From positions 1-64,000 of the forward strand of contig JAGVMP010000007.1 of NCBI GenBank assembly GCA_020053735.1: 64,000 bases of DNA, given 5' to 3'. A program made the translations under genes and the position numbers. Positions 3,371 through 57,630 of this stretch are shown piece after piece; position 1 is the stretch's first letter, and each line of letters begins with the position of its first letter. The notes under the pieces were generated by a model. The model searched no databases, was not told where the DNA came from, and saw only the letters and a list, made by a program, of their open reading frames with translations. Source of the DNA: Pseudomonadota bacterium (GTDB lineage Bacteria > Pseudomonadota > Gammaproteobacteria > Burkholderiales > Methylophilaceae).

Positions 3371-3405
3371 GCCCTGCAAGCCAATACTCATGCGGCTTGC
3401 AGGGC
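3371..3405 (+). repeat. 35-bp palindromic repeat, copy 1 (terminator-like)
   Basis: The arms GCCCTGCAAGCC and GGCTTGCAGGGC pair perfectly over 12 bp around the 11-base centre AATACTCATGC. The 3' side continues ATCGTTTTTATT, giving a hairpin plus T-run just after the ferritin-like gene. It is one of seven related copies in the window, at 3371, 9408, 12032, 33045, 40101, 51406 and 57596. Confidence 0.9.
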
Positions 3406-3435
3406 ATCGTTTTTATTAGGACTATGGATTGTTTT

Positions 3436-3990
3436 TTATTGATTGGTTTCTGCTTCTTTATCTAGTCGTTGCGCACCATTAAAGCGGCTAGACCAGTAGC
3501 CAGCTTGCATATTTTCTACACGTACTACCTTACCTGAGCTAGGCGCGTGAACAAATTTATTGTCACCAATGTAAATGCCCACATGTGAAAACGCACTTTT
3601 CAGCGTATTGAAAAATACCAAATCCCCAGGTTGCAATTCATCTTTTTTAACGGTTTTTCCCAGCTGACTAATCGCGCGCGCAGTAGGCGGTAAAGTTAAG
3701 TTGGCTGCGTTGTGAAACACATAGCGCACAAAACCACTGCAATCAAAGCCTGTTTCTGGGCTGTTTCCGCCAAATTTATATTTAATCCCCGTTAGGCTAA
3801 GCGCATTAATAATCACCTCTTGTGTTTTGGCTTTCCAGCCTGATGCCGGTTCTTGCGCAGTAGAGCTTTCACTAGAGCCATCTGCGCTGTAAAGCACAAC
3901 ACCTTCTGCATTTTCAGTCAGCACTTCATCCGCCATAGCGGGTGCGCAAAGGCAAAAGCTGCATATAAAAGTGTAGATAAGAAATTTCAT
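3436..3990 (-). CDS. Secreted NlpC/P60 (C40) peptidoglycan endopeptidase
   Basis: A 184-residue exported cysteine peptidase, probably cleaving stem-peptide bonds in the cell wall. A signal peptide ends at PAMA (residue 20). The NlpC/P60 domain begins around residue 58. It has the catalytic Cys in TGFDCSGFVRYVF and the His in FSHVGIYIGDNKF, with the third polar residue probably in the following FVHAP segment. There is no recognisable separate cell-wall-binding domain, so it is a single-domain enzyme of the small proteobacterial type. It may be co-oriented with the Gly-rich membrane protein upstream, but a hairpin separates them. Confidence 0.93.
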   Translation of the reverse strand: MKFLIYTFICSFCLCAPAMADEVLTENAEGVVLYSADGSSESSTAQEPASGWKAKTQEVIINALSLTGIKYKFGGNSPETGFDCSGFVRYVFHNAANLTLPPTARAISQLGKTVKKDELQPGDLVFFNTLKSAFSHVGIYIGDNKFVHAPSSGKVVRVENMQAGYWSSRFNGAQRLDKEAETNQ

Positions 3991-4016
3991 TGGAGAGAAT
4001 TGTCGGCTAAAAATAA

Positions 4017-4079
4017 AAAACCTACTTTAAAAAATTAAGTAGTAACGCTTAAAAAATAACTTAAGAAATAAAGTAGGGT
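4017..4079 (-). terminator. Probable terminator after the Gly-rich membrane protein gene
   Basis: On the minus strand CCTACTTTA pairs with TAAAGTAGG across a long interval that contains a second hairpin (CTTAAG with its complement). The structure is followed by TTTTTTATTTTT. It lies between the stop of the upstream Gly-rich protein gene and the NlpC/P60 gene. Confidence 0.6.
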
Positions 4080-4093
4080 TGAAGGTTGTCAAT

Positions 4094-4381
4094 TTATTGT
4101 TTTGCCATTGCGTTTTTAATCAGGCCGACTATCGCTAATAAAACGGCACCACCTACACCACCACCAGCCACTTGCGTGATAATTGAGGCAATGTCCAAGC
4201 TACCAGCCGCCTCTGCACCACCAACACCTAACATGGCAAGTAATTGACCACCTAAGCCGCCACCTAAAATACCGACAACTGAATTAAGCACTGGGCCTAA
4301 ACTTGCATTTTTCATCAAACTGCCAGCCACATTGCCGCCAACAGCACCGCTTATTAACTGAATAATTAAACCTAAATCCAT
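4094..4381 (-). CDS. Small Gly-rich membrane protein of unknown function
   Basis: A 95-residue protein dominated by Gly, Ala, Leu and Ile has two or three hydrophobic helices with GxxxG-like packing (GAVGGNVAGS, GILGGGLGGQ, GGGVGGAVLL). No catalytic motif is visible. The start is well supported by GGGAGGA six bases upstream. Similar small proteins occur in many proteobacteria, but I do not know a function. Glycine-zipper-like packing suggests oligomerisation in the inner membrane, which is inference only. Confidence 0.75.
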   Translation of the reverse strand: MDLGLIIQLISGAVGGNVAGSLMKNASLGPVLNSVVGILGGGLGGQLLAMLGVGGAEAAGSLDIASIITQVAGGGVGGAVLLAIVGLIKNAMAKQ

Positions 4382-4496
4382 ACATCCTCCCTAAAGTAAT
4401 GACAGAATTAAACGTTTACAGCACGCTTAGGCTAACAATAACCAGTGCTGAACGCAATAGTTTTTAACATGCAGCACAATCAACCATTACATTTCA

Positions 4497-6458
4497 ATGG
4501 CGTATTCATGGGATAATTTGGCTATGGCAGAAACCTCCGCACTATCCCAAATTTTTAAAGCAAATGGCGCACTCGCCGATGCAATACACGGTTTTAGCGA
4601 ACGCAAAGAGCAGCTTGAAATGGCATTGGCCATTGAAGATGCCATTAAAAATAACAAGCAACTGATTGCAGAGGCGGGCACTGGCACCGGCAAGACTTTT
4701 GCCTATTTAGTGCCTGCACTATTATCAGGCGGCAAAGTGATTATATCTACTGGAACGAAAACTTTACAGGACCAGCTGTTTAACCGTGACCTGCCAAATG
4801 TGCGCGATGCGTTAAAAGTGCCAGTTACGGTGGCCATGCTAAAAGGCCGCGCCAATTATGTATGTCATTACCATTTAGAAGCTGCTGCGCAAAGCGGCCG
4901 TTTTGCCTCGCGTGAAGATGCTAAATATGTGCATCTCATCAAAAACTTTGCAGAGAATAGCAAAACCGGTGACAAAGCAGAACTCACCGATGTACCAGAA
5001 AACGCAACCATTTGGATGAACGTGACCAGCACACGCGATAATTGCTTAGGCCAAGATTGCAACTATTACAAAGAATGTTTTGTGATGGAGGCGCGTAAAA
5101 AGGCACTGGCGGCAGATGTGATTGTGGTGAACCATCACCTGTTTTTTGCTGATGTGATGTTGCGCGACGAGGGCGTGGCAGAGTTATTGCCTTCCGCCAA
5201 TACCGTGATTTTTGATGAAGCACACCAGTTGCCAGAAGTGGCGGGGTTGTTTTTTGGCGAGGATATTTCAACTTCGCAACTTATCGAACTGTGCCGCGAC
5301 AGTTTGACTGCGCATCTCACTTTGGCGAAAGATTGCGTCGCGCTGGGTGAAGCGATTCCTAAATTAGAAAAAGCCTGCAAAGATTTTAGGCTAGTGTTCC
5401 AATACGAAGGCTCAAGATTGCCTGTCAATAAAGCGCTGGCGTTAAAAAATTTCGAATCTGCATTTGCTGATATGCAAAGTATACTCAAGGCCTTAAATGC
5501 GGTGCTAGAAAGCCAAGCCGCGCGTGACCCCATGCTGGAGAAATGTTGGCAGCGTGGAGAAGAGCTTAACCTACAGCTTACGCGTTGGCTTAAAGCCGAA
5601 AATGCAAATTTAGTACGTTGGGTAGAGGTGTTTACGCAAAGTGTGCAACTGCACGCAACCCCATTGAGCGTGGCAGATGGCTTTAGCAAACAGTTGAACG
5701 CACAACCGCGTGCCTGGATTTTTACTAGCGCTACCTTAGCGGTAAAAAGCGATTTTAGTCACTATCAAGCGCAAATGGGATTAACCCATGCCGAAACTGG
5801 CTATTGGCAAAGCCCATTTGATTATGGCCTGCAAGCCTTATTATATGCGCCTGCTGGCATGCCAGATCCCAATTCCTCGGGCTATGCCGCCGCGGTTGCT
5901 GCTGTGAGTTTGCCTGTGATACAAGCCAGCCGTGGCCGCGCGTTTGTACTCTGCACTAGCTTGCGCGCCATGCGCGAAGTCCATGCATTGTTAAAAGACG
6001 CGTTTGGCGAAAATGGTATGGAGTATCCATTATTGCTGCAAGGAGAAAGCACACGCACCGAATTATTAGACCGCTTTCGTACGCATGGCAACGCGGTACT
6101 GGTGGGCAGCCAAAGCTTTTGGGAAGGCGTCGATGTCCGCGGAGAAGCATTATCAGTGGTGATTATCGACAAGCTGCCATTCGCCCCGCCCGATGACCCA
6201 GTCTTGTCAGCACGTATTGATAAATTGACCGCAGATGGGAAAAATGCCTTTATGGAATATCAATTGCCTTACTCAGTCATCACGCTTAAACAAGGCGCAG
6301 GGCGCTTAATTCGCGATGAAACAGACAGAGGCGTGCTGGTGATTTGTGACCCGCGCCTTATCACCAAACCTTATGGCAAGCGCATCTGGCAAAGCCTGCC
6401 GCCGTTTAAACGCACCAAGGAATTGGCGGATGTGGAAGCTTTTTTTGACACTAATTAA
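4497..6458 (+). CDS. DinG-family (YoaA-like) Fe-S ATP-dependent DNA helicase
   Basis: A superfamily 2 XPD-like helicase of 653 residues. Walker A is AEAGTGTGKTFAYL near residue 58 and the DEAH box is VIFDEAHQLPE near 238. Between them four cysteines (YVCHYH, then CLGQDC and YKEC) form the expected 4Fe-4S site. The helicase C-terminal half shows FTSATLA, GSQSFWEGVDVRGE and QGAGRLIRDETDRG. The protein probably unwinds damaged or R-loop-containing DNA. The start is uncertain: the ATG at 4497 has no clear ribosome-binding site and an in-frame ATG at 4524 is equally plausible. The next gene starts 12 bases after the stop. Confidence 0.93.
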   Translation: MAYSWDNLAMAETSALSQIFKANGALADAIHGFSERKEQLEMALAIEDAIKNNKQLIAEAGTGTGKTFAYLVPALLSGGKVIISTGTKTLQDQLFNRDLPNVRDALKVPVTVAMLKGRANYVCHYHLEAAAQSGRFASREDAKYVHLIKNFAENSKTGDKAELTDVPENATIWMNVTSTRDNCLGQDCNYYKECFVMEARKKALAADVIVVNHHLFFADVMLRDEGVAELLPSANTVIFDEAHQLPEVAGLFFGEDISTSQLIELCRDSLTAHLTLAKDCVALGEAIPKLEKACKDFRLVFQYEGSRLPVNKALALKNFESAFADMQSILKALNAVLESQAARDPMLEKCWQRGEELNLQLTRWLKAENANLVRWVEVFTQSVQLHATPLSVADGFSKQLNAQPRAWIFTSATLAVKSDFSHYQAQMGLTHAETGYWQSPFDYGLQALLYAPAGMPDPNSSGYAAAVAAVSLPVIQASRGRAFVLCTSLRAMREVHALLKDAFGENGMEYPLLLQGESTRTELLDRFRTHGNAVLVGSQSFWEGVDVRGEALSVVIIDKLPFAPPDDPVLSARIDKLTADGKNAFMEYQLPYSVITLKQGAGRLIRDETDRGVLVICDPRLITKPYGKRIWQSLPPFKRTKELADVEAFFDTN

Positions 6459-6469
6459 AGGTGGAGTTT

Positions 6470-7273: not shown

Positions 7274-7283
7274 GCATAAAGCA

Positions 7284-7685
7284 GTGCTCATAATCATCCC
7301 TGAAACCGACTATGAACTCACCGCTATTCGCGCGCAGGGGGCGGGTGGGCAGAATGTGAATAAAGTATCTACCGCCATTCATTTGCGTTTTGATATTAAC
7401 GCCTCTAACTTAAGCGAGTGGTTGAAAGCACGACTTATTCATAGTAAAGATAATCGCATTACTGACGAAGGTGTGTTGATTCTTAAAGCTCAGCAATATC
7501 GCACCCAAGAGGCGAATAAAAAAGACGCGATTAAGCGTTTGCATGAGATTGTAAATGCTGCAAACCAGGTAAAGCCAATGCGCTATGCGACTAAGCCGAG
7601 TTATGGTTCAAAACAAAGGCGATTAGAAGGTAAGACAATACGTAAGCAAGTGAAGCAATTGCGCGGTAAAATAGCGCATGATTAA
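7284..7685 (+). CDS. arfB: Alternative ribosome-rescue factor / peptidyl-tRNA hydrolase ArfB
   Basis: A class I release-factor-like protein that frees ribosomes stalled on mRNAs lacking a stop codon. The GGQ loop that triggers peptidyl-tRNA hydrolysis is in RAQGAGGQNVNKVSTAIHLR near residue 15. The C-terminal tail (GSKQRRLEGKTIRKQVKQL) is the basic segment that enters the empty mRNA channel. I chose the GTG at 7284, which places the GGQ domain at the usual distance from the N-terminus. A TTG at 7260 would overlap the previous gene. The 133-residue length is typical. Confidence 0.9.
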   Translation: MLIIIPETDYELTAIRAQGAGGQNVNKVSTAIHLRFDINASNLSEWLKARLIHSKDNRITDEGVLILKAQQYRTQEANKKDAIKRLHEIVNAANQVKPMRYATKPSYGSKQRRLEGKTIRKQVKQLRGKIAHD

Positions 7686-7703
7686 TCACAAATTTCCCAC
7701 ATT

Positions 7704-7788: not shown

Positions 7789-7823
7789 GGCTTTGTAAAA
7801 GCAAATTAATAAATTTTAACAAA

Positions 7824-8546: not shown

Positions 8547-8573
8547 TGTTTGAAATTAATATACAACAATTCC

Positions 8574-8638
8574 CCGTTCGTGGTGAGCTTGTCGAACCAT
8601 CGAACATCGCCACCCTTCGACAGGCTCAGGGCGAACGG
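8574..8638. repeat. 65-bp imperfect inverted repeat between tsaB and rimI
   Basis: The ends CCGTTCGTGGTGAGCTTG and CAGGCTCAGGGCGAACGG form an imperfect inverted repeat with only four mismatches. TCGAA/TTCGA extends the stem inward. It resembles the dispersed TTCGACAGGCTCAG element known from many bacterial chromosomes. It is inserted into an otherwise tight gene pair just before the rimI start. Confidence 0.7.
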
Positions 8639-9111: not shown

Positions 9112-9142
9112 GAGTGGCTTGCATGATGAGATTGTCGCTTTG

Positions 9143-9748
9143 ATGAATAGAGATGACGTGCTGCGTGAACTAGAACTGTTGCCAGTGTGGAAGCTGCGCA
9201 CGCCAGTTGAAACGGTGTTGACGCAACAAGTGGCAGTTGAAAAATTAGAAGCTGTACAAGTAGCAATCGTAGCCACTGAAGAATCTGCTCTTGAAAAACC
9301 TGTCCCTAAAAAACCTGCCTCTGAAAAACCTAGCAGCACGGCGGTAATTCAGTACGAAATCACGATATCGCAAGATAAGCAGTGGGCATTTATATGTAAA
9401 ATTAGCATGCCTGCAGGCCGCATGGATACTGGTCTGCAGAGCACCTTATTCAACAATATCTTGCATGCTTTAAGCATTGAAAAACCCAGCAAAATGCAGG
9501 TGGCAAGCATTGCAGATGTTCAAGCGAGAGTGATAATAGCGATGGGCGAATCGGTAGCGCAAGCGTTGTTAAATACGCAGGAGCCACTAGAAAATTTACG
9601 TGGCAAGTTGCATGCCATTGGTCACATGCAATTAGTTGCCACTTGCGATCTTGCGCATTTACTCAGCAATCCGCTTGATAAGGCTAAAGTCTGGCAAGAT
9701 TTGTGTTTGGCGCGCAGCTATTTACAACACTTGCATGTGCAAGATTAA
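9143..9748 (+). CDS. Degenerate uracil-DNA-glycosylase-fold protein (possible pol III psi/HolD-like)
   Basis: The ends resemble family 4 uracil-DNA glycosylases found after rimI in betaproteobacteria: the N-terminus RDDVLRELELLPVWKLR, the middle RVIIAMGESVAQALL, and the end NLRGKLHAIGHMQLVATC followed by LLSNPLDKAKVWQDLCLA. The catalytic GExPG segment, the Fe-S cysteines and the HP motif near the C-terminus are missing; CDLAH replaces the last. A 35-bp palindromic repeat copy sits where the GExPG segment should be. HolD, the polymerase III psi subunit, also has an inactive UDG-like fold, starts with a similar RRD..L..LG sequence and lies beside rimI in E. coli. A psi-like role is therefore possible. 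The ATG at 9143 starts at the conserved N-terminus. Confidence 0.6.
   Translation: MNRDDVLRELELLPVWKLRTPVETVLTQQVAVEKLEAVQVAIVATEESALEKPVPKKPASEKPSSTAVIQYEITISQDKQWAFICKISMPAGRMDTGLQSTLFNNILHALSIEKPSKMQVASIADVQARVIIAMGESVAQALLNTQEPLENLRGKLHAIGHMQLVATCDLAHLLSNPLDKAKVWQDLCLARSYLQHLHVQD
9408..9442 (-). repeat. 35-bp palindromic repeat, copy 2, inside a reading frame
   Basis: In reverse orientation the arms pair over 9 bp and the centre ATGGATACTGG complements the family consensus CCAATATCCAT with one change. The copy is wholly inside the UDG-fold gene, contributing roughly the codons for MPAGRMDTGLQS without a stop or frameshift. Confidence 0.75.
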
Positions 9749-10393: not shown

Positions 10394-10442
10394 GTCACAA
10401 GAAACCTAATACAGCTTTACTACACGAATGTCTCACTACTCC

Positions 10443-10573
10443 GTCATTCCCGCGCAAGCGGGAATCCATTGGATTTTGAATTTTTGGATCATTTTAAAAT
10501 GGATGGCCGTCCCTCGAAACTCGGCTTTATCTTTGTTTTCTAGCTCTCGTTTTCCCGCTTGCGCGGGAATGAC
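10443..10573. repeat. 131-bp MITE-like element with perfect 22-bp inverted ends
   Basis: The left end (10443-10464, GTCATTCCCGCGCAAGCGGG plus AA) and the right end (10552-10573) are perfect reverse complements over 22 bp. Each end is itself a short palindrome (CCCGCGCAAGCGGG). The 87-bp interior has no coding potential of its own. The ends resemble the ATTCCC..GGGAAT type of repeat described in Neisseria and related bacteria. The right end contains the apparent start codon of the downstream TPM gene. Confidence 0.85.
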
Positions 10574-11453
10574 GATTACTAGGAAGTTGCTTAATAGGTT
10601 TAATTTTGTAGCAATTTTCTTTAGCTTTTTTCTGTTTTCACAGATAGCTTTTGCTGAGCTTGTTGCGGTTCCCGAATTAAAATCACGCGTCACTGATTTA
10701 ACCCAAACATTATCTGCAGCCGAGCAAGCGCAACTTGAGCAAAAACTAGCCGCGTTTGAAGCCAAAAAAGGCAGTCAAATTGCGCTGCTAATTGTACCGA
10801 CCACACAACCCGAAGACATTGCGCAGTATTCGCTTAGAGTCGTCGAAAAATCGAAAATTGGTCGTGAAAAGGTAGATGATGGCTTATTAGTGCTGGTGGC
10901 AAAAGACGACCGTAAAATGCGTATTGAAGTTGGCTATGGCCTAGAAGGTGCGGTACCAGATTTGTACGCCAAGCGCATTATTAGTGAAATCATCAGTCCA
11001 AGATTTAAGCAAGGCGATTATTACGGCGGCTTAGACGCAGGGCTGAACAGCTTAATTGGCTTAGTGGATGGCGAAGCATTGCCAGCGCCTAACAGCGCGA
11101 AACCTAACGGCATGGACATCATGGATATGCTGCCCATATTACTGTTTGGCGGTTTGGTGACAGGTCTATTTTTGCGCAGTATGTTCGGCACTTTCTTTGG
11201 CAGCGCACTGAATGGCGGCCTGATTGGCACGTTGATTTGGGTGCTTGGTGTAGCTTTGGGTGGTGCAGCGATACTGGGTGTCATTGCATTTTTTATTACC
11301 ATGATGCTGGGCGGACGCGGTATGAATGGTTACAGCGGCGGCATACCCACAGGTGGTAATTATGGGGGCGGCGGTTGGTCTGGCGGTGGTTCTAGCAGTT
11401 GGGGCGGTGGCGGCGGTGATTTTGGCGGTGGCGGGGCTAGTGGGGATTGGTAA
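10569..11453 (+). CDS. TPM-domain membrane protein (YgcG-like)
   Basis: A 294-residue protein with a signal peptide ending at AFA, then a TPM domain (about residues 25-165). The domain shows LPxxxDGLLVLVAKDDRKMRIEVGYG-type sequence, visible here as KVDDGLLVLVAKDDRKMRI and VGYGLEGAVPD. Two transmembrane helices (about 200-250) and a Gly/Ser-rich C-terminal tail follow. This architecture is typical of LemA-linked proteins proposed to work in envelope or photosystem-type protein turnover. The ATG at 10569 falls inside the right end of the MITE-like repeat. A much longer ORF start upstream would translate the repeat itself and is unlikely. Confidence 0.85.
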   Translation: MTITRKLLNRFNFVAIFFSFFLFSQIAFAELVAVPELKSRVTDLTQTLSAAEQAQLEQKLAAFEAKKGSQIALLIVPTTQPEDIAQYSLRVVEKSKIGREKVDDGLLVLVAKDDRKMRIEVGYGLEGAVPDLYAKRIISEIISPRFKQGDYYGGLDAGLNSLIGLVDGEALPAPNSAKPNGMDIMDMLPILLFGGLVTGLFLRSMFGTFFGSALNGGLIGTLIWVLGVALGGAAILGVIAFFITMMLGGRGMNGYSGGIPTGGNYGGGGWSGGGSSSWGGGGGDFGGGGASGDW

Positions 11454-11499: not shown

Positions 11500-12009
11500 A
11501 TGAAAAGAACGCATCCTATCATTCGCTTTATTAAGCATATGTTTAGCCACCCGTGGCAAGTGCAGCGCCATTTTTCGGCAGAAGCACTGCGCACCATTGA
11601 AAAAGCCATTTCAGCCAGTGAAAAAAATCACGCTGGTGAGATTCGTTTTGTAGTGGAGGCGGGTTTGCATCCTTATGAGATTTTGTGCAAGAAAACGCCC
11701 AAGAAACGCGCAATTGAGCTATTCGGTCGCTTGAATGTTTGGGATACTGAGCACAATAATGGCGTGCTGATTTACTTACTGCTTGCTGACCGCGATGTGG
11801 AAATTGTGGCTGACCGTGGCATAGATCAGCATGTAGGTCGCGATGGTTGGGAAGCCATTTGCCATGAGATGGAAGGGTTGTTTAGAAAAGGTCAGTTTGA
11901 AGCTGGTATGTTACAAGGCATAGCCAAAATTAGCACAGTGTTACAGCAGCATTACCCGCAAACAGGCATTAGCAAAAATGAAGTTTCCAATAAACCACTT
12001 GTTATGTAA
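11500..12009 (+). CDS. TPM-domain protein, cytosolic or membrane-associated
   Basis: A 169-residue second TPM protein of the lemA cluster, lacking a signal peptide and Gly-rich tail. The TPM core includes HAGEIRFVVEAGL near residue 45, the segment NNGVLIYLLLADRDVEIVAD near 88, and RGIDQHVGRDGWEAI near 108. The order lemA, long TPM, short TPM is common in betaproteobacteria, so the three probably form one functional unit. AAGATAAGTT precedes the start. Its end overlaps the longest version of the next reading frame by 32 bases. Confidence 0.87.
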   Translation: MKRTHPIIRFIKHMFSHPWQVQRHFSAEALRTIEKAISASEKNHAGEIRFVVEAGLHPYEILCKKTPKKRAIELFGRLNVWDTEHNNGVLIYLLLADRDVEIVADRGIDQHVGRDGWEAICHEMEGLFRKGQFEAGMLQGIAKISTVLQQHYPQTGISKNEVSNKPLVM

Positions 12010-12739
12010 GAGGCTAAAGTATCACAGTGCAGGCCTGCCGACCACATGGATATTGGTCTGCAGCCTAGCATTTTTTTCTCCAATACTTGTCTTCCCAATA
12101 CTTGCGCATGCCGAATTAAGTGATATTTCACGCATTTTTCGCCAAACTCCAAGCTTAAACCAATTCGAAATTTGCCAAGGTGGCGGTTGCGCGGAGATTT
12201 CAAAAACATCGCTAACCGAATTAGAGTGGAATGCAGTCACCCGCATTTTTAATGTGCCGACAAAAAGCGCACAAGAAAAAAATGCAGTGGTAGAGCGTCA
12301 AAAAGTCGCACAAGCGATTGGGCTGCTAGAAGAGTTGGTTGGCAAAAAAATAGGGACTGCAGGCGATTTGGCAGGGACATTTTTTAATGGCAGTTTGACG
12401 GGGCAGCAAGATTGCAATGACGAAGCGATTAATAGCACCACTTATATGCGGCTGTTAAAAAACAGTGGCTACATGCCGTTGCACGAGATAGAAGATACGC
12501 GCACGCGCAACTTCTTTTTTACCGGTTGGCCGCACACCACGGCAGTGATACGCGAAATCAAAACAGGTGAAAGATATGCGGTAGATAGCTGGTTTTACGA
12601 TAATGGGCATGCCGCGACGATTGTCACTTTTAAGCAATGGAAAGCCAATTTTCAGCCAGAAGATAGCCCGATTAGCAAGACGAGAACAACCGTAAAATCC
12701 ACAAATTCGCAAGCCAGTAATACTACAAAATTTAAGTAA
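11978..12739 (+). CDS. Secreted protein of unknown function with possible Cys/His/Asp triad
   Basis: Up to 253 residues. A hydrophobic segment ending at AHA (residue 45) looks like a signal peptide. The mature part contains QQDCNDEAINSTTY, FFTGWPHTTAVI and YAVDSWFYDNG in this order. They offer a Cys, a His and an Asp in the sequence order of transglutaminase-like or papain-fold enzymes. I do not recognise a named family. The start is uncertain: the ATG at 11978 overlaps the previous gene, and the signal-peptide region is partly encoded by a palindromic repeat copy. A TTG at 12053 would give a shorter signal peptide. Confidence 0.65.
   Translation: MKFPINHLLCKRLKYHSAGLPTTWILVCSLAFFSPILVFPILAHAELSDISRIFRQTPSLNQFEICQGGGCAEISKTSLTELEWNAVTRIFNVPTKSAQEKNAVVERQKVAQAIGLLEELVGKKIGTAGDLAGTFFNGSLTGQQDCNDEAINSTTYMRLLKNSGYMPLHEIEDTRTRNFFFTGWPHTTAVIREIKTGERYAVDSWFYDNGHAATIVTFKQWKANFQPEDSPISKTRTTVKSTNSQASNTTKFK
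12032..12066 (-). repeat. 35-bp palindromic repeat, copy 3, in a signal-peptide region
   Basis: In reverse orientation the arms GGCCTGCCGACC and GGTCTGCAGCCT pair at ten of twelve positions, including one wobble. The centre ACATGGATATT matches the complement of the family consensus with one change. It overlaps the N-terminal hydrophobic segment of the downstream secreted protein. Confidence 0.75.
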
Positions 12740-29827: not shown

Positions 29828-30610
29828 TTATAAACTATTGAGTTTTAAAACAATGGCATCATAAGCTGCTTTGGTTAAGTCGCGCCTGCTTTTTCCACTG
29901 GCTTGAATGGGTGCTAAAAAATGCAGGGCTACGGTGGGATTTTTTTGCTTCAGTACGCTTTGCATCGATTCAATTAAAGTAGTATCACCAGCGTAGGCCA
30001 TTTGCGTATTAATCCTGCCATCTGGGTGGCTGTACCGGATGGCGACTGGCCATATTTGTGCATTTGCATCAATCGCTGCTTGTAACACACTACTCTTGAA
30101 AGGCAATGCTGGCTTGCCTTGTAGGCCATGGCTGTTCATTCCTGTGCCATCAGTAGTCGTTCCTTCAGGGAAAAAACAAACGTTGTTACCTGTCGACAGG
30201 CTCTCATTGGTGAGATCTACAATGCGTCCCGCTTCTTGACGTTTGCCTCTTTCTACAAAGATGGCATTGCTATTCCTTGCTAGATAGCCAAACACAGGCC
30301 AGCTTTTAATATCAGATTTGGCGATAAATCGCACTGGAATGACGCTGTTAAGGGCGTGAATATCTGACCACGAAATATGATTAGCGACGAACATGGTGCT
30401 GCGAGTATCTGGTGGTGGTAGCTTGCCGTGGAGTAACACTTTAATATTAAATGCACGTAACAAGCCACCGCACCACCATTGAATCAGTTTAAAATTACTG
30501 GGCTTGCTGATAAAAGGAAACATAAACCCTGCCAATGTTAGCCCAACAATGGTGTGAATAAAAATGCGCAATATTCGATAATAACGTGTTAAAAAGTGGT
30601 TTTGTTGCAA
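29828..30610 (-). CDS. olsA: 1-acyl-glycerol-type acyltransferase, probably OlsA-like (lyso-ornithine lipid)
   Basis: A 260-residue PlsC-family membrane acyltransferase. One helix near the N-terminus (about 15-35) precedes the NHx4D motif FVANHISWSDIHAL near residue 75 and the FPEGTTTDGTGMNS motif near 150. The start is a TTG lying 1 base after the stop of the OlsB-like gene, so translation is probably coupled. In the ornithine lipid pathway OlsB adds the first acyl chain to ornithine and OlsA the second, and the gene pairing supports that reading. A general phosphatidic acid acyltransferase is the alternative. Confidence 0.8.
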   Translation of the reverse strand: MQQNHFLTRYYRILRIFIHTIVGLTLAGFMFPFISKPSNFKLIQWWCGGLLRAFNIKVLLHGKLPPPDTRSTMFVANHISWSDIHALNSVIPVRFIAKSDIKSWPVFGYLARNSNAIFVERGKRQEAGRIVDLTNESLSTGNNVCFFPEGTTTDGTGMNSHGLQGKPALPFKSSVLQAAIDANAQIWPVAIRYSHPDGRINTQMAYAGDTTLIESMQSVLKQKNPTVALHFLAPIQASGKSRRDLTKAAYDAIVLKLNSL

Positions 30611-33044: not shown

Positions 33045-33079
33045 GCTCTGTAAGCCAATATCCATGCGTCTTAGAGGCG
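33045..33079 (+). repeat. 35-bp palindromic repeat, copy 4 (degenerate)
   Basis: The left arm GCTCTGTAAGCC and the centre AATATCCATGC match the family. The right arm GTCTTAGAGGCG has diverged and pairs poorly, and no T-run follows. It lies in the 218-base gap between the PfkB and TetR genes, which contains nothing else recognisable. Confidence 0.65.
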
Positions 33080-35684: not shown

Positions 35685-38600
35685 ATGAACGCACCTGTAC
35701 CTCTCGAAATTCTTCAAACCGAGCCTGCGCCAGCCACACGACTGCGCGAAATTCCCTACAACTACACGTCTTTTTCTGATCGCGAAATCGTCATTCGGTT
35801 TCTAGGTGAGCAAAGCTGGGATATTTTGAATAGCTTGCGCGATGAGCGCAAAACAGGTCGTAGTGCGCGTATGTTGTTTGAGGTGCTGGGTGATTTGTGG
35901 GTGGTTTCTCGCAACCCATATTTGCAGGATGATTTGCTGGATAACCCGAAACGTCGCAAAGCCTTAATCGATGCGCTGCATCATCGCATTCATGCTATTG
36001 ATGAGCGTGGCGCAGCAGCAAATGACAAAGTCAATAAACTAGTGGCTGCTGCCAAACAAGCCATCGAGAAATTCGCTGATGATTTTCGTCAAACTTACGA
36101 TTTGCGCAAAAAAGCCTTAAGCAAATATAGCAAAATTACGCGTAAAGATAATATTCAGTTTGACGGTTTAGCGCGTGTATCGCATGTGACTGATGCTACC
36201 GATTGGCGTGTTGAGTACCCGTTTGTGGTGTTGAATCCCGATACTGAAATTGAAATTGCCGCATTGGTGCGGGCAAGTATCGAGTTGGGTTTAACGGTGA
36301 TTCCACGTGGCGGTGGCACTGGCTATACAGGCGGCGCTATTCCACTGACACCACTTTCTGTAGTGATTAATACGGAGAAATTAGACCAGCACACAGGCGT
36401 GCAAATGCGCACCTTGCTAGGTGTGGCGCGTCAAGTAGCAACCATTGAATGTGGCGCCGGTGTCGTCACTCGTCGTGCCATGGAAGCCGCAACGGACGCC
36501 GGACTTGAATTTGCCTGCGACCCTACTTCTGCCGACGCATGTTGCATAGGCGGTAACGTGGCCATGAACGCGGGCGGTAAAAAAGCCGTGCTGTGGGGCA
36601 CCGCCTTAGATAACTTGGCTTCGTGGCGCATGGTAACCCCAGATGCGAAATGGCTTGAGGTGGAACGTTTAGAGCATAACCTTGGCAAAATTCACGATAT
36701 TAAAATGGCGCGCTTTAAGCTGACACGATTTGATGTCGATATGAAAACGCAACTGGGTGAGCCGGAAATTATTAGCATCCCCGGCCCTAGTTTCCGCAAA
36801 GTTGGCCTCGGTAAAGACGTCACTGACAAATTTTTAAGTGGTCTGCCAGGCATTCAAAAAGAGGGTTGTGATGGCCTGATTACCAGCGCCACTTTTATTT
36901 TGCATCGTATGCCCAAGCATGTGCGCACCATTGCCTTAGAATTTTTTGGCAACGTATCACACGCAGTGCCCGCGATTGTAGAGATTAAAGATTACCTCGA
37001 CCTTACTGCCAAGCAAGAGCCAGCTGTGATTATGGCTGGGCTAGAGCATATGGACGAACGTTATATTAAAGCCGTGGGTTATGCCACGAAAGCTGCGCGC
37101 CAACAACGCCCAAAAATGGTATTAATTGCCGATATTGCTTCTGACGACGAGAATGCCGTCGGCCAAGTAGCGTCTGCTATGGTGCGTATGTGTAATGCGC
37201 GTGATGGCGAAGGTTTTATCGCAGTATCAGGTGAGGCACGTAAAAAATTCTGGCTCGACCGTGCGCGTACCGCCGCAATTGCTAAGCATACAAACGCCTT
37301 CAAAATTAACGAAGATGTGGTGATTCCGCTACCAAAATTGGGTGAGTATTCTGATGGCATCGAGCGCATTAATATCGAGCTGTCTATTGATAACAAGCTT
37401 AAATTATTAGACGCGCTAGAAACATTTATGCACAGCGATTTGCCACTGCAAGCGGATGAGGATGGCAACTCTGATGCAGAAATGGTGCATGCAAAACAAG
37501 CGATTGCGTTGCAGTTATTACATGATTTGCGCGCACGCTGGAGCTTGATTTTAAATAGCTTGGATGCACCTGTTTCTGTACTAGGCGATATTGGCGAACC
37601 GCACAAACAATATGAAAACGTGTTCCGTGCCGTTCAAAGTTATGATTTACGCATCTCATGGAAGCGTGAACTTAAGCGCCCAATTGAAGAGATTTTCGCA
37701 GGGCGCGAGTATCAAAAAATACTCAATGAATTAGATGTGATTCATAAAAAAGTGCTGAAAAGCCGCGTGTTTATTGCCTTGCATATGCATGCGGGTGATG
37801 GCAATGTGCATACCAATATTCCAGTCAATTCAGATGATTATGGCATGATGCAGCAAGCCCATACCGCGGTGGACCGTGTGATGGTGCTGGCTAAAAGCTT
37901 GAATGGGGTGATTTCTGGCGAGCACGGTATTGGTATCACCAAAATGGAATACCTAGACCAATCTACTATTGACAACTTTACGAACTACAAAAATAAAGTA
38001 GACCCCAACGGCCACTTTAACAAAGGTAAATTGCTTGCCGGTTCTGGGCTAGAAAACGCCTATACGCCTAGCTTTGGCTTGCTAGAGCAAGAATCTATCA
38101 TCATGGAGCAATCTGCCATTGGTGAAATTGCCGATGATATTTCGGATTGTTTACGTTGCGGTAAGTGCAAGCCGGTGTGTACCACCCACGTGCCACGTGC
38201 CAATTTGCTCTATAGTCCGCGCAACAAAATTTTAGGGACTTCGCTATTAATCGAGGCCTTCCTGTACGAAGAGCAAACGCGGCGTGGCATCTCGCTCAAG
38301 CATTTTGATGAGTTTAACGACGTGGCTGACCATTGCACTGTGTGCCACAAATGTGAGAAACCTTGCCCTGTAGATATTGACTTTGGTGATGTTTCTATCA
38401 AGATGCGCAATTTTTTACGCGAGCAAGGTAAAAAGAAATTTAACCCAGGCACCGCGGCAGGCATGTTGTTTTTAAATGCCAAAGACCCTGCGACGATTAA
38501 ATTGTTACGCGTCGGCATGATTCAATTTGGCTATCGTGCGCAAAGCCTTGCGCATGTATTGGCGAAAAAATTTGGGCTACTTAAAGATAAGTTCAGGCCG

Positions 38601-39557
38601 CCAGCTACAGTCGGCAAGCCCGAAATCAAGGCACAGGTGATTCATTTTATTAATCGACCCATGCCAAAAAAACTGCAGTCTAAAACTTCACGCGCTATGC
38701 TGGGCATAGAAGATGACAGCATGATTCCGGTCATTCGTAACCCGCAAAAAGTGAACGAAGATTCAGAAGCGGTGTTTTACTTCCCTGGCTGTGGCTCTGA
38801 GCGTTTGTTTTCTAACGTCGGGTTAGCCACGCAAGCCATGTTGTACGAGGTGGGCGTAATCACTGTGCTGCCACCTGGCTACCTGTGTTGCGGTTACCCC
38901 CAAACTTCTAGTGGTAATCACGATAAAGGCCTGCAAATCACCACCGATAACCGTGTGCTGTTTCATCGTGTGGCCAATACGCTCAATTATTTAGACATAA
39001 AAACGGTCATTGTGTCTTGCGGTACTTGTATGGACCAGTTGCAAAAATACGAGTTTGAGAAGATTTTCCCCGGTTGTAGGTTGCTGGATATTCACGAGTA
39101 TTTGATGGAGAAAGACCAGAAACTATCAGGCATCACCGGGACGCGCTATATGTATCACGACCCGTGCCATAGCCCCATGAAAACCTATAAACCGTTAGAA
39201 GTGACCAATAAGCTGATGGGTACTGAGGTGGCGCTGAATGACCGCTGTTGTGGCGAAAGCGGCACTTTTGCAGCTGCCCGCCCGGATATTGCGACGCAGG
39301 TGAAATTCCGTAAGCAAGAAGAGTTGGAAAAAGGCATGCAAAAAATGGGTTTAACTGTTGGCAAGCCAGAAGAGAAAGTTAAAATTCTCACTTCGTGCCC
39401 AAGTTGTCTGCAAGGTTTAGCCCGTTATGGCGACGATACTGGCATTGAGGCGGATTATATTGTGGTGGAAATGGCCAAGCATATTCTGGGTGAGAACTGG
39501 ATGCAGGAATATGTTCAGCAAGTGAATAATGGCGGGATTGAGAAGGTGTTGCTGTAA
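35685..39557 (+). CDS. Large FAD/4Fe-4S oxidoreductase with DUF3683 N-terminus (GlcD-GlpC-like fusion)
   Basis: A 1290-residue cytosolic or membrane-peripheral dehydrogenase. An N-terminal DUF3683 region (about 15-140) precedes a PCMH-type FAD domain with [18 protein letters not shown] near residue 205. A FAD-oxidase C domain follows, with [15 protein letters not shown] near 700 and GEHGIGITK near 745. Two 4Fe-4S motifs follow: [11 protein letters not shown] near 820 and [11 protein letters not shown] near 885. Cysteine-rich CCG domains are near 1030-1240 ([34 protein letters not shown]). It resembles D-2-hydroxyacid dehydrogenases fused to their electron-transfer subunit. The substrate is not deducible. 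Confidence 0.93.
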
Positions 39558-40100: not shown

Positions 40101-40135
40101 GCCCTGCAGACCGCATGGATATTGGTCTACAGGGC
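40101..40135 (-). repeat. 35-bp palindromic repeat, copy 5 (terminator-like)
   Basis: Reverse orientation. The arms GCCCTGCAGACC and GGTCTACAGGGC pair at 11 of 12 positions and the centre GCATGGATATT is the exact complement of the family consensus AATATCCATGC. GTGTTTTTATT follows, giving a terminator-like shape on the plus strand. Confidence 0.88.
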
Positions 40136-40172: not shown

Positions 40173-40949
40173 ATGAATAAGTTGTATTTAACCCTATTTC
40201 TTTTACTTCAAAGCCCTTTAGTTTTTGCCGCAACTGAAAACGGCCGCTGGCACGCAGGCATTGGTGATGCCAGCATTTTCGGCTGGATAACTGTAGTGTT
40301 CTACTTATTCGCAACATTTCGTTGTGTTGTTAAAGCAAAAGACTCTAAGAAATTTGGCGGTAATTATCAATTTTGGCTTTATCTAGGCGCATTCTTATTG
40401 CTGTTGGGGATCAACAAGCAGCTTGATTTACAGAGTTGGTTAACTGAAATTGTTAAAGATAGTGCGCACGCGCATGGTTGGTATCAGCATAGAAGGCCCG
40501 TGCAAATTGCTTTTATAGCGCTACTAGGTTTAGGTATGGTAATTGCGCTATTGAGTTTACGTTTGTTTTTAGCAAACTCTTGGCGACATAACAAATTAAC
40601 TTGGATCGGCATTATATTACTAGGTACGTTTATCGTAATGCGAGCCGCGTCTTTCCACCATTTTGATATTTTTATTAATCGGCCTGTTTTAGGTGTAAGG
40701 ATTAATGTGATGATTGAAATAGGCGCCATTCTACTCATTATTTTAGGCACATTTTTTAATAAAAAATCTACAAATCTTTTGGCCATCAACACTTTTCCTA
40801 TGAATGGATATGCTGAAATAATCAACGAAGGGGATGATGTACAGTGTCCACGATGTGGCGTTCAACCGATGTCAAATACCATCGATGGGCGTGTATTTAA
40901 ATGTAGAGGTTGTGGCAATAAATACATGGTGCGCGTGTTGAATAGCTAG
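40173..40949 (+). CDS. Hypothetical membrane protein with C-terminal zinc ribbon
   Basis: A 258-residue protein with a signal-peptide-like N-terminus, five or so hydrophobic segments between residues 25 and 205, and a C-terminal zinc-ribbon (CPRCGVQPMSNTIDG, then FKCRGCGNKYMV near 240). The two CxxC pairs fit a zinc-binding knuckle. No family is recognised with certainty. It precedes pyrD by 39 bases on the same strand, but no functional link is evident. Confidence 0.6.
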   Translation: MNKLYLTLFLLLQSPLVFAATENGRWHAGIGDASIFGWITVVFYLFATFRCVVKAKDSKKFGGNYQFWLYLGAFLLLLGINKQLDLQSWLTEIVKDSAHAHGWYQHRRPVQIAFIALLGLGMVIALLSLRLFLANSWRHNKLTWIGIILLGTFIVMRAASFHHFDIFINRPVLGVRINVMIEIGAILLIILGTFFNKKSTNLLAINTFPMNGYAEIINEGDDVQCPRCGVQPMSNTIDGRVFKCRGCGNKYMVRVLNS

Positions 40950-47992: not shown

Positions 47993-49837
47993 TTAGGCTT
48001 TAAAAATTTGCCCAATTGAAAGTTTGGTCACTTTGCGACGGTAACCATAAATTAAATTCACAATCGCGCGCGATACCAATACCGCGCTAAACATCGAGGT
48101 AAGAATGCCCAGCACATGCACCACCGCAAACCCTTTAATCGGGCCAGTGCCAAACATAAATAGCGCCAAACCAGCGATTAAAGTAGTCACATTCGAGTCA
48201 ATGATGGTATCAAAAGCACGGTCATAACCCGCATGTATACTGGCTTGTGGCGTATTGCCGTTGCGCAATTCTTCGCGAATCCGTTCGTTAATCAGTACGT
48301 TAGCATCAATTGCCATACCCAATGCCAATGCAATCGCTGCCAAGCCAGGCAGTGTGAGTGTGGCTTGCAACATAGATAGTAAGGCAACTAATAACAGCAA
48401 ATTGACGCCTAGCGCCAATACTGAAACGCCGCCAAACACTAGATAATAAATCATCATCATGACCGCAATCGCTGCAAAGCCCCACAGTGTGGAATGTACG
48501 CCGCGCTTAATGTTTTCCACGCCCATGCTAGGGCCAACCGTACGTTCTTCAATAATCTCCATCGGTGCTGCCAGTGCGCCGGCACGTAGCAGCAAGGCGA
48601 CATCGGTGGCTTCTTGCGCGTTACCCATGCCAGAGATTTGCACTTGGCCACCGCCGATTTCTTCGTTAATCACAGGTGCAGTAATGATCTCCGTGCTGTT
48701 TTTTTCAATCAATAAAATCGCCATACGCTTGCCGACGTTATCGCGCGTGACGTTTTTAAATATACCTGCACCGCGACCATCTAACGTTACATTGACTACA
48801 GAGCCGCCTGTTTGCTGGTTGACACCTGGGCCAGCATCAGTAATGCGATCACCCGTTAGCACAACACTCTTTTTCACTAATATTGGATTGCCATCGCGGT
48901 CTTTATATAGCTCGTCACCAAACGGAACCCTACCTTCTTCGGCCGCTTTAAGCGTCGCCATATCTTTTTTATCTTCATCTACCATGCGAATTTCTAGCGT
49001 CGCAGTGCGGCCTAAAATCTCTTTGGCTTTTGCGGTGTCTTGCACGCCTGGTAACTGCACCACAATGCGGTCAAAGCCTTGTTGCTGAACGATAGGCTCG
49101 GCAACACCCAATTCGTTAATACGGTTATGCAACGTTTGTAAGTTTTGCTTCAGCGCAAATTCTTGAATTTTTAATTTGTTTGCCTCGCCAATACTGGCGT
49201 TTAACACAAACTCTTTACCTGCCACACTGTCGGTATAAGTTAAATCAGGATAGTCTTTGCTTAGCAATTTTTCTGCTTTTTTCAGCTCGGCAGCACTATC
49301 AAACTTCACCTCAACTTTTTGGCCTTCGCGGCTAATGCCAAAATAGTTGATTCTTTCGCGACGTAACGTGGTGCGGAAATCGCCCACACTGCTTTCGGCA
49401 GATTTATCCAGCGCCGCTTTCATGTCCACTTCTAACAAAAAGTGCACGCCACCACGTAAATCTAAACCCAAATACATCGGTTTGGCACCAATCGCCAGCA
49501 ACCAGCTTGGTGTTTGCGACAGCAAATTGAGCGCAACGGTGTAATCTTTACCCAAATTTGCGCTCAACTTATCTTTAGCTTTTAATTGCTCTTCAGGCGT
49601 GTTAAAGCGCACTTTCACGCCGTTAGCATCTAGAAAAATACCATTAAATTTAATATCTGCCAGTGCTAATGTCGATTCCACCTTGCTTAACAGCTCTGCG
49701 TTAGCTTTAAGCGAGGCCTTGGCGGGCGAAACTTGCACTGCTGGCGATTCACCGTAAAAATTGGGGATGGTGTACAGCAGCCCAATTAAAATCACAACAG
49801 CAATTAAAATGTATTTCCAGGTGGGGTAACGGTTCAT
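47993..49837 (-). CDS. secD: Protein translocase subunit SecD
   Basis: A 614-residue partner of SecF. It shows the N-terminal helix (about 8-26), the conserved LGLDLRGGVHFLLEVDM near residue 120, the large P1 periplasmic domain and the membrane core with GLAAIALALGMAIDANVLIN near 495 and ERIREELRNG. FDTIIDSNVTTLIAGLALF near 535 is also diagnostic. It starts 79 bases after yajC and is followed by secF in one operon. Confidence 0.97.
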   Translation of the reverse strand: MNRYPTWKYILIAVVILIGLLYTIPNFYGESPAVQVSPAKASLKANAELLSKVESTLALADIKFNGIFLDANGVKVRFNTPEEQLKAKDKLSANLGKDYTVALNLLSQTPSWLLAIGAKPMYLGLDLRGGVHFLLEVDMKAALDKSAESSVGDFRTTLRRERINYFGISREGQKVEVKFDSAAELKKAEKLLSKDYPDLTYTDSVAGKEFVLNASIGEANKLKIQEFALKQNLQTLHNRINELGVAEPIVQQQGFDRIVVQLPGVQDTAKAKEILGRTATLEIRMVDEDKKDMATLKAAEEGRVPFGDELYKDRDGNPILVKKSVVLTGDRITDAGPGVNQQTGGSVVNVTLDGRGAGIFKNVTRDNVGKRMAILLIEKNSTEIITAPVINEEIGGGQVQISGMGNAQEATDVALLLRAGALAAPMEIIEERTVGPSMGVENIKRGVHSTLWGFAAIAVMMMIYYLVFGGVSVLALGVNLLLLVALLSMLQATLTLPGLAAIALALGMAIDANVLINERIREELRNGNTPQASIHAGYDRAFDTIIDSNVTTLIAGLALFMFGTGPIKGFAVVHVLGILTSMFSAVLVSRAIVNLIYGYRRKVTKLSIGQIFKA

Positions 49838-51058: not shown

Positions 51059-51406
51059 ATGCAAGTATTTAGGGATATTTCAGAGCCTATACGTAGAGGT
51101 TTGAGTTGGGATGAAACGTGGAAGAGTACTGATGACGGCTTAATTGCCTGCTGGGAAAGTGGAAGAGAAAAAGCATTTAAAGAAGAAATATCAGCTCAAG
51201 CCGCCAAGTGTGGGGAATTGATTATTCTTCCTTGGCGAGGCGGTGTCGATGAACCCATTAAAGGTAAAAAATATGGCACGTATCAATATTTGGCTATGTG
51301 GCAAGGTGTTCGCGGAGAGTCTTTAGATATTGATACAAACTCTCCAGTTTCTATTACTTGCAGTAGAACGAATATGCGGGTAATCTTTACAAGTGAAAGT
51401 TTATAG
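51059..51406 (+). CDS. Hypothetical protein paired with the BRCT gene
   Basis: A 115-residue soluble protein with no recognised family. It has a helical opening (WDETWKSTDDGLIACWESGR), a central AAKCGELIILPWRGGVDEP and a beta-rich end. GAGGCGGT precedes the ATG and only 10 bases separate it from the BRCT gene, so they are probably cotranscribed. The last base of its TAG stop is the first base of palindromic repeat copy 6, so the 3' end may have been altered by the repeat. Confidence 0.6.
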   Translation: MQVFRDISEPIRRGLSWDETWKSTDDGLIACWESGREKAFKEEISAQAAKCGELIILPWRGGVDEPIKGKKYGTYQYLAMWQGVRGESLDIDTNSPVSITCSRTNMRVIFTSESL

Positions 51407-51440
51407 GCCTGCAAGCCAATATCCATGCGGTTCGCAGGGC
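51406..51440 (+). repeat. 35-bp palindromic repeat, copy 6
   Basis: The arms GGCCTGCAAGCC and GGTTCGCAGGGC pair imperfectly around the exact consensus centre AATATCCATGC. ATCTATTTTA follows. It overlaps the stop codon of the preceding gene by one base and separates it from the convergent tgt. Confidence 0.82.
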
Positions 51441-51447: not shown

Positions 51448-52575
<1,128 letters not shown>

Positions 52576-53924: not shown

Positions 53925-53933
53925 GATAAATTG

Positions 53934-54914: not shown

Positions 54915-54969
54915 TTAGCTAAACATTTGATATACTTAAATTACTCATACACAGGCTGGTATAAAAATT

Positions 54970-55761: not shown

Positions 55762-55775
55762 TTAGTTTCTGCAAC

Positions 55776-55804
55776 TTGAAAAGCAGGTAAAAAGCCCCTA
55801 TACT
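55776..55804 (+). promoter_or_regulatory. Probable leuA leader promoter
   Basis: TTGAAA at 55776-55781 and TATACT at 55799-55804 are separated by 17 bases, a near-consensus sigma-70 promoter. The expected start point, about 7 bases after the -10 box, falls on the ATG of the leader ORF at 55811. Confidence 0.75.
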
Positions 55805-55810
55805 AAAGTT

Positions 55811-55921
55811 ATGTTGAGTTCATTCACATTCCAGAGCTACATTTATCTTTCTGCAGGCTTATTATTAAGCCTCGCATTGCTACGTGCACTAGCACTTCGT
55901 CTGCGCGTGCGCGCAGACTAA
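55811..55921 (+). CDS. Leucine-rich leader peptide upstream of leuA (candidate leuL)
   Basis: A 36-codon frame with 11 leucines; nine of codons 17-31 are Leu, using six different Leu codons (LLLSLALLRALALRLR). It starts exactly where transcription from the near-consensus upstream promoter should begin, so it may be leaderless. Hairpins lie inside it: GGCTTA with TAAGCC (55856-55871) over the Leu codons and GTCTGCGCG with CGCGCAGAC (55899-55918) just before the stop. A later dyad CGCTGAA/TTCAGCG precedes leuA but lacks a T-run. Ribosome stalling at Leu codons could control leuA. The arrangement is that of an attenuator leader, unproven here. Confidence 0.65.
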   Translation: MLSSFTFQSYIYLSAGLLLSLALLRALALRLRVRAD

Positions 55922-56016
55922 CCCCCACCCCAAAATTAAGTATTTTTACGCTCGCTGAAAATTGCTTCAGCGGGTAAAATTCGCCTATTAAAAAGATTCG
56001 ATTTAGGACAGCACAA

Positions 56017-57582
56017 ATGAACCCGCCAAAAGAATTAGACAATATTATTATTTTTGACACCACCTTGCGCGATGGAGAGCAAAGCCCAGGTGCCGCCATG
56101 ACCAAAGAAGAGAAAATTCGTATTGCGCGCCAACTAGAAAAATTGGGCGTCAATGTGATTGAAGCAGGCTTTGCCGCCGCCAGCCCTGGCGATTTTGATG
56201 CCATTCACACCATCGCAGGTTTAATTCATAACTCAACTGTGTGCTCACTTGCGCGCGCCAGCGAGAATGATGTGCGCCGTGCGGGTGAGGCGATTACGCC
56301 AGCCATGCAACATGCCGAAAAAAATGGTCGCATTCATACCTTTATTGCCACTAGCAAAATCCACATGGAAAACAAATTGCGCATGACGGAAGACCAAGTG
56401 GTTGAGCGTGCAGTGCAAGCGGTGAAGTGGGCGTTGGAATATACGCCGGATGTTGAATTTTCTGCCGAAGATGCAGTGCGATCAGATATCGACTTTTTAG
56501 TGCGCGTGTTTGATGCGGTGATTGAAGCGGGAGCAACGACAATTAACGTGCCAGATACAGTTGGATATAGTATTCCCGCGCCGTGGGGCGAGCGCATGAC
56601 CACATTGATTAAGCGCGTTAAAAATAGCGACAAAGTGGTATGGTCTACGCATTGTCATAACGATTTGGGCATGGCAGTCGCCAACTCCTTAGCGGCAGTG
56701 ATGGGCGGTGCCCGCCAAGTGGAATGTACCATTAACGGCTTGGGTGAGCGTGCAGGTAACGCCAGCTTAGAAGAAGTAGTGATGGCGATTAAAACGCGCT
56801 CTGATATATTCAACTTAACCACGCGCATCGACACCACACAAATTGTGCCTACCAGTAAATTGGTTTCTACCATCACCGGCTATCCTGTACAGCCCAACAA
56901 AGCAATCGTTGGCGCCAATGCGTTTGCGCACGAAAGCGGCATTCATCAAGACGGCGTGTTAAAACATCGCGAAACCTATGAAATTATGCTCGCCGAAGAC
57001 GTGGGCTGGAACGCCAACAAATTAACCTTGGGTAAATTGTCTGGTAGAAATGCTTTCCGTACGCGCTTAAAAGAGTTGGGCATTGAGTTGGAAAGTGAAG
57101 ATGCTTTAAACGCTGCGTTTGCACGCTTTAAAAATTTGGCGGATAAAAAGTCAGAGATTTTTGACGAAGATTTGCACGCCTTGGTCAGTGGCGAGTTTGT
57201 GCATGAGGCCAGCGAAAACTACAAATTAGTCTACTTGCAAGTGGCGTCACAAACAGGCGAAATTCCGCATGCGGTGCTTACTTTGTCAGATAACGGCATA
57301 GAAAAACGGGCCGAAGCCGATGGCGGCGGTCCCGTAGATGCCACCTTTAAAGCGATTGAAAGCATGGTAGCCAGTGGGGCAGAGTTACAGTTATATTCGG
57401 TCAATAACATCACCAGCGGCACCGATGCGCAAGGTGAAGTGACTGTGCGTTTGGCTAAAGGCGGCCGTATTGTGAATGGCCAAGGTGCCGATACTGATAT
57501 TGTGGTGGCTTCCGCGAAAGCCTACTTGAATGGCTTAAACAAACTCTATTCCAAAGAAGAGAAAATGAATCCACAGCTGTAA
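56017..57582 (+). CDS. leuA: 2-isopropylmalate synthase
   Basis: A 521-residue first enzyme of leucine synthesis, condensing acetyl-CoA with 2-ketoisovalerate. The catalytic TIM barrel begins with [17 protein letters not shown] near residue 11 and has the metal-binding HxH in [14 protein letters not shown] near 211 and [15 protein letters not shown] near 240. [14 protein letters not shown] near 305 and a C-terminal regulatory domain (about 390-510), where leucine binds for feedback inhibition, complete it. AGGACAGCACAA precedes the ATG. Expression is probably controlled by the leader ORF upstream. Confidence 0.97.
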
Positions 57583-57595
57583 CATCATATTCGAT

Positions 57596-57630
57596 GCTCT
57601 GTAAGCCAATATCTATAAGGCTTGTAGAGC
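57596..57630 (+). repeat. 35-bp palindromic repeat, copy 7 (terminator-like)
   Basis: The arms GCTCTGTAAGCC and GGCTTGTAGAGC pair over all 12 positions with two wobbles around AATATCTATAA. ATTGTTTTTCG follows. Relative to copy 1, the C-G pair at the third position is replaced by T-A, a compensatory change. It lies 13 bases after leuA. Confidence 0.85.

Follow-up and report, generated by a model that had tools for sequence, protein, structure and literature searches.

What kind of element is the 35-bp palindrome that recurs seven times in a single 64,000-nucleotide stretch of a methylotroph-family genome, and what has placed copies of it both between genes and inside them? The stretch, referred to here as the window, comprises positions 1 to 64,000 of contig JAGVMP010000007.1 (assembly GCA_020053735.1, Methylophilaceae), and its genome (G000; 2,442,352 bases in 19 contigs, 99.99% complete) appears to lie in or very near Methylotenera. 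A preliminary description of the window took the repeat for a lineage-specific element of the repetitive extragenic palindrome (REP) type, with its stem under selection for structure. The explanation that we now consider best, held tentatively and at slightly less than even confidence, is that the repeat is a watermark resembling uptake sequences, which biased transformation has spread. We favor this reading because the origin of in-gene copies by substitution, the strand neutrality, the palindromes at gene 3′ ends and the uneven distribution across the genus all match the behavior of uptake sequences.

Under such a scheme the recognition word would be approximately 22–24 bp long, consisting of CTGCARRCCAATAYCCATGCGG with flanking A/T tracts, and would accumulate by substitution and recombination. 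During natural transformation DNA bearing the word would be preferentially taken up, and base changes that improve the word would spread. Between genes the word would be free to turn into a full palindrome, perhaps acting as a bidirectional terminator, while copies in genes would preserve chiefly the left arm and the centre, in a frame that yields a tolerable peptide. We infer that the process is driven by uptake and not by some other DNA-binding function, and that a receptor for the word exists.

Copy number, consensus and distribution

To count the repeat we built a covariance model (R1) from the seven window copies. When 150 of 1401 first-look candidates in the G000 genome were scored, at least 145 gave matches with E ≤ 1. 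A simpler search, allowing as many as three mismatches to the 22-base core CTGCARRCCAATAYCCATGCGG, returned 170 occurrences, divided 82 to 88 between the two strands, while the same pattern reversed, used as a control under the same threshold, returned 0 in this genome. A chance origin of the palindrome family is excluded, and the excess over chance on which the preliminary description depended is real. The core has no strand bias and is strongly over-represented genome-wide, as is required of the DNA uptake sequences (DUS) and uptake signal sequences (USS) of other bacteria. At the gathering score Rfam recognized two tRNAs in the window and left the repeat unmatched.

Alignment of 64 strong copies revealed that the centre of the palindrome is asymmetric and conserved, and that the flanks of the 35-mer are A-rich at −8 to −5 and T-rich at +41 to +43, so the conserved unit reaches slightly past the 35-mer. 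Weaker motifs such as CGAG or CATC/CTTC are found farther out than these tracts on either side.

The repeat is distributed unevenly among 15 genomes of the genus. Ten are carriers, with core counts of 170, 125, 79, 74, 72, 40, 34, 30, 30 and 17, and the other five are near zero with 2, 2, 1, 1 and 1. In a midpoint-rooted LeuA tree the ten carriers and the five other genomes fall on opposite sides of a fully supported split. A TyrA tree does not include G003 and has its outgroup, G015, on a long branch; in it the nine carriers present group together with support, the remaining genomes being basal. Outside the genus R1 found five matches in G015 and, among 25 other genomes, one weak match each in G022 and G028. 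A scan of public genomes for exact occurrences of the stricter pattern CTGCARRCCAATAYCCATGCGGYYTGCAG identified 13 contigs from nine assemblies, three labeled Methylotenera, one Methylophilaceae, one Methylococcaceae and four only as Pseudomonadota or uncultured proteobacterium.

Copies inside genes

A total of 149 copies with up to four mismatches were assessed in the fetched loci under a stricter coding test, and about a quarter of them (37) lie in open reading frames (ORFs). Of these in-gene copies 25 have the same strand and phase 0, encoding the peptide (A/G)LQANIHA and variants of it. Pfam analysis of ten of the proteins gave MoaA-type, Mur-ligase (FolC-type), formyltransferase, HSP70, Hda-lid and Mfd models among others; FolC, TrpD, FabD and FMT were named through solved homologues, and two further genes are presumably prmC and tyrA. 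The two arms are not equally preserved. Among in-gene copies selected with R1 (n = 18) the left arm averages 0.56 mismatches and the right arm 2.33, the left being the better arm in 14, while for the other R1-selected copies (n = 107) the values are 0.87 and 1.04. The asymmetry was taken from the R1-selected set; the logos of coding and intergenic copies were ascertained on the left core. Because of this asymmetry the recognized word looks like the left arm plus the centre, with the full palindrome retained mainly between genes.

If a 35-bp element had been inserted into a coding sequence it should have added approximately 12 residues, and orthologues can be inspected for such a gap. For prmC, 10 of the 11 displayed orthologues are gap-free over residues 38–85, and the remaining one, from G015, differs by a single additional residue, which lies outside the motif; the search gave no match in G002, G003, G004 and G014. 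Mismatches to the 35-mer in prmC run from 0 (G013) and 3 (G000) through 3, 5, 6, 7, 8, 12, 14, 18 and 21 to 21, and the worst values (14, 18, 21 and 21) belong to the four non-carriers examined, so resemblance is graded among species. For tyrA, 12 of 14 orthologues are gap-free at the motif, with no match found in G003. In most prmC and tyrA orthologues the in-gene copies therefore look like products of substitution and not of insertion, and gap-free overlay with graded resemblance is the pattern published for USS. A contrast is provided by prmC itself, where approximately 35 residues near positions 118–153 of the G000 protein are encoded by another repeat (CCGTCATTCCCGCGTAGGCGGGAATCC ... GGATTCCCGCCTACGCGGGAATGACG). 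A comparable stretch occurs in G005 and none in the ten other displayed orthologues, which is the appearance of a real insertion. This in-frame insertion (L130) is a CGTCATTCCCGCG...CGCGGGAATGACG pair, and the same palindromic repeat occurs in inverted pairs in the window at 10442–10464 and 10552–10574.

Another explanation is that the repeat is a directly selected site for a chromosomal DNA-binding protein, such as a nucleoid organizer, partition or repair factor, with the intergenic dyads bound by dimers. A dyad with a conserved centre, strand neutrality and in-gene overlay by substitution are all what such a protein would lead us to expect, as are the sites common to species: 11 of 27 relative loci gave 12 locus pairs, some of which were positioned from a single flank, to within 150 bp. 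The explanation is nevertheless unlikely, as one arm is largely dispensable in genes and the information content of the repeat, approximately 47–58 bits, is far above the approximately 15 bits calculated for 170 sites, although the higher figure is biased upward, the copies having been picked on the core.

A mobile origin is less probable. The repeat could be a REP-like element or miniature inverted-repeat transposable element (MITE) whose transposase is absent or unrecognized and whose in-gene copies are old and reshaped, which would agree with the long, copy-like consensus, the doublets and the occurrence in GC-rich metagenome-assembled genomes (MAGs), with the 10-residue length differences that FolC and FMT show next to the motif, and with a longer spacer in carriers at one site (L072). 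The REP-associated tyrosine transposase (RAYT) that the preliminary description suggested looking for could not be identified: the model for IS200/RAYT Y1 transposases (PF01797) has no match in the G000 genome at E ≤ 0.001, the best E value being 0.83, and at this threshold it is also absent from 8 of the 9 other carriers. Within the genus it matches only G005, with 24 R1 copies, and G011, with 0, so its presence is unrelated to copy number. There is no adjacent conserved tetranucleotide of the GTAG/CGTC type in the 64 aligned copies, these being tag names in the portions of the REP/RAYT literature drawn on here. A REP element moved by a RAYT was rejected on the missing Y1 match and on the prmC and tyrA alignments, in which codons are overlaid without a gap in most orthologues and graded intermediates exist. 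The motif had no match in the viral contigs, phages and plasmids searched, and a phage or plasmid origin was set aside on that basis. Intergenic sites give a mixed answer to the insertion question. At leuA the palindrome is present in G000 and G006 only, and a clean insertion is not seen there, spacer length varying in a non-carrier as well (G001 is cut off at this point); the L072 spacer is longer in carriers. Taking these observations together we regard the mobile explanation as quite unlikely, and the part of the preliminary description that proposed a moved REP-type element is not upheld.

Other repeats are found close to the motif. A second repeat (ATGAATAACCAGCTTNAGCTGGTATATTCTG...GACAACC) abuts it and replaces one arm in approximately 12 copies, on the right side in L111, L143, L144, L238, L242, L243, L247, L249 and L251 and on the left side in L100, L109 and L149; in L242 it lies within an Hda-like ORF. 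A third repeat (CATTGCGAGG...GTAGCGACGCGGCAATCC) lies next to L072, in the spacer of G000 and in the corresponding one of G005.

Gene ends and stem structure

Mapped against gene ends, as the preliminary description had suggested, the copies outside genes lie mostly at 3′ ends and often between convergent genes, in addition to the quarter or so that are in genes. Gene calls were made with a hexamer-based caller, for which start positions are rough. Of 125 copies in the G000 genome 32 overlap predicted ORFs and seven have a neighbor past the edge of the locus. The remaining 86 are intergenic with both neighbors in view, and 46 of them are in convergent, 37 in tandem and three in divergent spacers; as a background, convergent spacers account for 878 of the 8160 bp of window spacers that are at least 40 bp long. 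The median distance from copy to gene 3′ end is 26 bp. In tandem spacers the orientation of the centre relative to the genes is random (19 same, 18 opposite).

The seven window copies were all confirmed, with exact positions, arms and centre. Copy 1 (3371–3405, plus strand) lies between convergent genes, with perfect 12-bp arms and a stem lengthened by AT/AT. Copy 2 (9408–9442, minus) overlaps a weakly coding ORF (9119–9748) on the opposite strand, and copy 3 (12032–12066, minus) lies directly past an ORF ending at 12009; an ORF start set at 11978, upstream of copy 3, is probably mis-set. Copy 4 (33045–33079, plus) falls between two minus-strand ORFs (32940 and 33159) and has a partly broken right arm. 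Copy 5 (40101–40135, minus) is located between an ORF ending at 39557 and one starting at 40173, and at this site an aligned copy is present in G015, which belongs to a different genus. The ORF on its left (35685–39557) would encode a protein of 1290 residues in which glycolate oxidase GlcD-type and Fe-S reductase models both fall in one chain, at sub-cut-off scores. Copy 6 (51406–51440, plus) is 8 bp beyond the 3′ end of tgt (51448–52569, minus) and copy 7 (57596–57630, plus) is 14 bp beyond the leuA stop codon. Two degenerate cores with four mismatches are also present in the window. The first (48229–48250, minus) is in frame in secD, where it encodes PQASIHAG, and is possibly a weak copy; the second (62001–62022, minus), within an ORF at 61504–62868, may be a chance match. 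The segments 8594–8627 and 30170–30203 have TCGACAGGCTC in common.

The intergenic palindromes may double as bidirectional terminators. A GC-rich hairpin and a 3′ location are observed, with a T tract that begins late, approximately 5 bases after the stem. That the repeats are intrinsic bidirectional terminators homogenized by gene conversion, with no other role, is improbable: the strong hairpins (z-scores between −4.2 and −6.3 in the four strands that were folded), the A/T tracts and the convergent 3′-end location agree with it, but not the conservation of an asymmetric centre, the roughly one in four examined copies that sit in genes with a degenerate right arm, or the delayed T tract.

Selection on structure had been proposed from compensating changes at pairs 3, 9 and 10 of the stem. 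These changes are present as described, and several window copies also contain broken pairs, copy 4 the most. In an alignment of 74 copies both sides have changed in 44 cells, compared with a shuffled mean of 21.9, and 86.9% of cells are paired, compared with 83.9% after shuffling; pair 7 is unpaired in 32 of the 74. Stem covariation thus exists, beyond that of shuffles, but is moderate. Selection for RNA structure is weakened as an explanation because the orientation of the centre in tandem spacers is random and because the right arm is degenerate in genes. A GGA loop is a CsrA-type motif, and an RNA-level function, of which this would be one example, was set aside on the absence of strand preference in tandem copies, and is further disfavored by the GGA lying on the antisense strand of most in-gene copies. 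Orientation is kept in 11 of the 12 matched locus pairs. At L072 the centre of the G001 copy faces the opposite way from those of G000 and G010, with the outer flanks in unchanged order. Template switching inside palindromes is a known kind of mechanism; it could invert centres and mend arms, producing compensating changes without selection on RNA.

Comparison with known uptake systems

The ComEC competence protein (PF03772) was detected in the G000 genome and in 12 of the 14 other members of the genus, the two misses (G004 and G006) both being incomplete carriers. No match to PF03772 was obtained in G015, a complete genome with few copies. The presence of ComEC permits but does not prove competence. 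In G000 one copy (L117; C10:101064–101108) lies within approximately 700 bp of the ComEC domain, and is probably inside the comEC reading frame.

Several observations weigh against an uptake watermark. Every one of the five near-zero genomes also has ComEC, as do controls such as E. coli. The density of approximately one core per 14 kb in the G000 genome is about tenfold below that of USS and DUS (approximately one per kb), and the core is 22 bp long, compared with 9–12 for those words. In the fetched loci cores with a single mismatch outnumber perfect ones (54 against 26), unlike the very strong consensus of USS and DUS. Spacing on contig C14, with 39 known positions (at least 39 copies), is more clustered than random (coefficient of variation 1.33 compared with 0.97), and regular spacing was not found, whereas USS and DUS are described as spaced more regularly. 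Two tyrA orthologues have extra residues at the motif, six in G001 and 11 in G006. Distant comparisons with solved homologues are mixed: TrpD is gap-free at the motif, but of the six comparisons extending as far as the motif, five show a gap in its vicinity, in proteins that are far diverged (the HSP70 alignment ended short of it). These gaps are of one residue in MoaA, up to three residues in Mfd, four extra residues just upstream of the motif in FabD, and one extra residue at the motif plus 10 just after it in FMT, while FolC exceeds its E. coli counterpart by 10 residues at the motif and is within one residue of another homologue. At L072 the palindrome of G000, G001 and G010 lies in a far longer spacer than that of non-carriers. 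Finally, exact copies occur in five contigs of 60–63% GC from two assemblies (L155, L158, L161, L162 and L163). In L158 and L161 a degenerate second copy adjoins the exact one, and a further degenerate copy was read by eye in L162 and L163; all four are MAG contigs. Of the preliminary reading, the lineage-linked, high-copy, palindromic and largely extragenic character of the repeat is supported. We do not file the repeat as an uptake sequence because of its low density, long word and irregular spacing, the mixed distant gap tests, and an uptake step that is deduced from sequence.

If biased transformation is responsible, the Methylotenera group may possess an undescribed, independently evolved uptake-watermark system, a possibility that we hold at well short of even confidence. 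Its word would be about twice the known length, would have a dyad form with an invertible centre, and would occur also in at least two proteobacterial assemblies of high GC content. In the portions of the open-licence literature available, no uptake word was recognized for Methylophilaceae or Methylotenera and the motif strings were unmatched. A 2006 paper, in the part drawn on here, describes uptake words as then unknown in naturally transformable bacteria besides Pasteurellaceae and Neisseriaceae (PMC1626085). If true, a single genus would offer both carriers and non-carriers in a graded case of independent origin, so that the start, spread and loss of uptake words, and the question of selection or drive, could be tested directly. 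Palindromes can also reach high copy number in a bacterium without being mobile REPs, and the coding-gene gap test can help to tell a mobile REP from an uptake-type word.

The comparisons that follow, like the reference values for density, spacing and consensus above (PMC1626085), rest on portions of the cited papers; the reference list also holds PMC12616744, PMC2817692, PMC3116915, PMC3733652 and PMC3868556. REP and REPIN elements with a RAYT are, like the repeat described here, small extragenic palindromes with more than 100 copies. The present repeat differs in lacking a RAYT-type match in its own genome and an adjacent tetranucleotide, and in overlaying codons in genes. The DUS of Neisseriaceae, for which ComP is named as the receptor, are 10–12 bp long and we noticed no likeness to our repeat beyond a CTG in the core. 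There are parallels in arrangement: DUS pairs in S. muelleri have dyad symmetry (PMC3630211), and some DUS sites in Neisseria face gaps in relatives, which were read as gain by recombination (PMC2397512). The USS of Pasteurellaceae have a 9-bp core at approximately one per kb, compared with 22 bp at one per 14 kb and an inferred uptake here. Redfield and colleagues found gaps in 24% of USS alignments, mostly outside the core, and concluded that USS are not insertions (PMC1626085). The USS resemble our repeat in their in-gene origin by substitution, enrichment in non-coding DNA and A/T-rich flanking segments (PMC1626085), in forming inverted pairs in terminators (PMC1852404), and in preferring one orientation in genes (PMC2346458).

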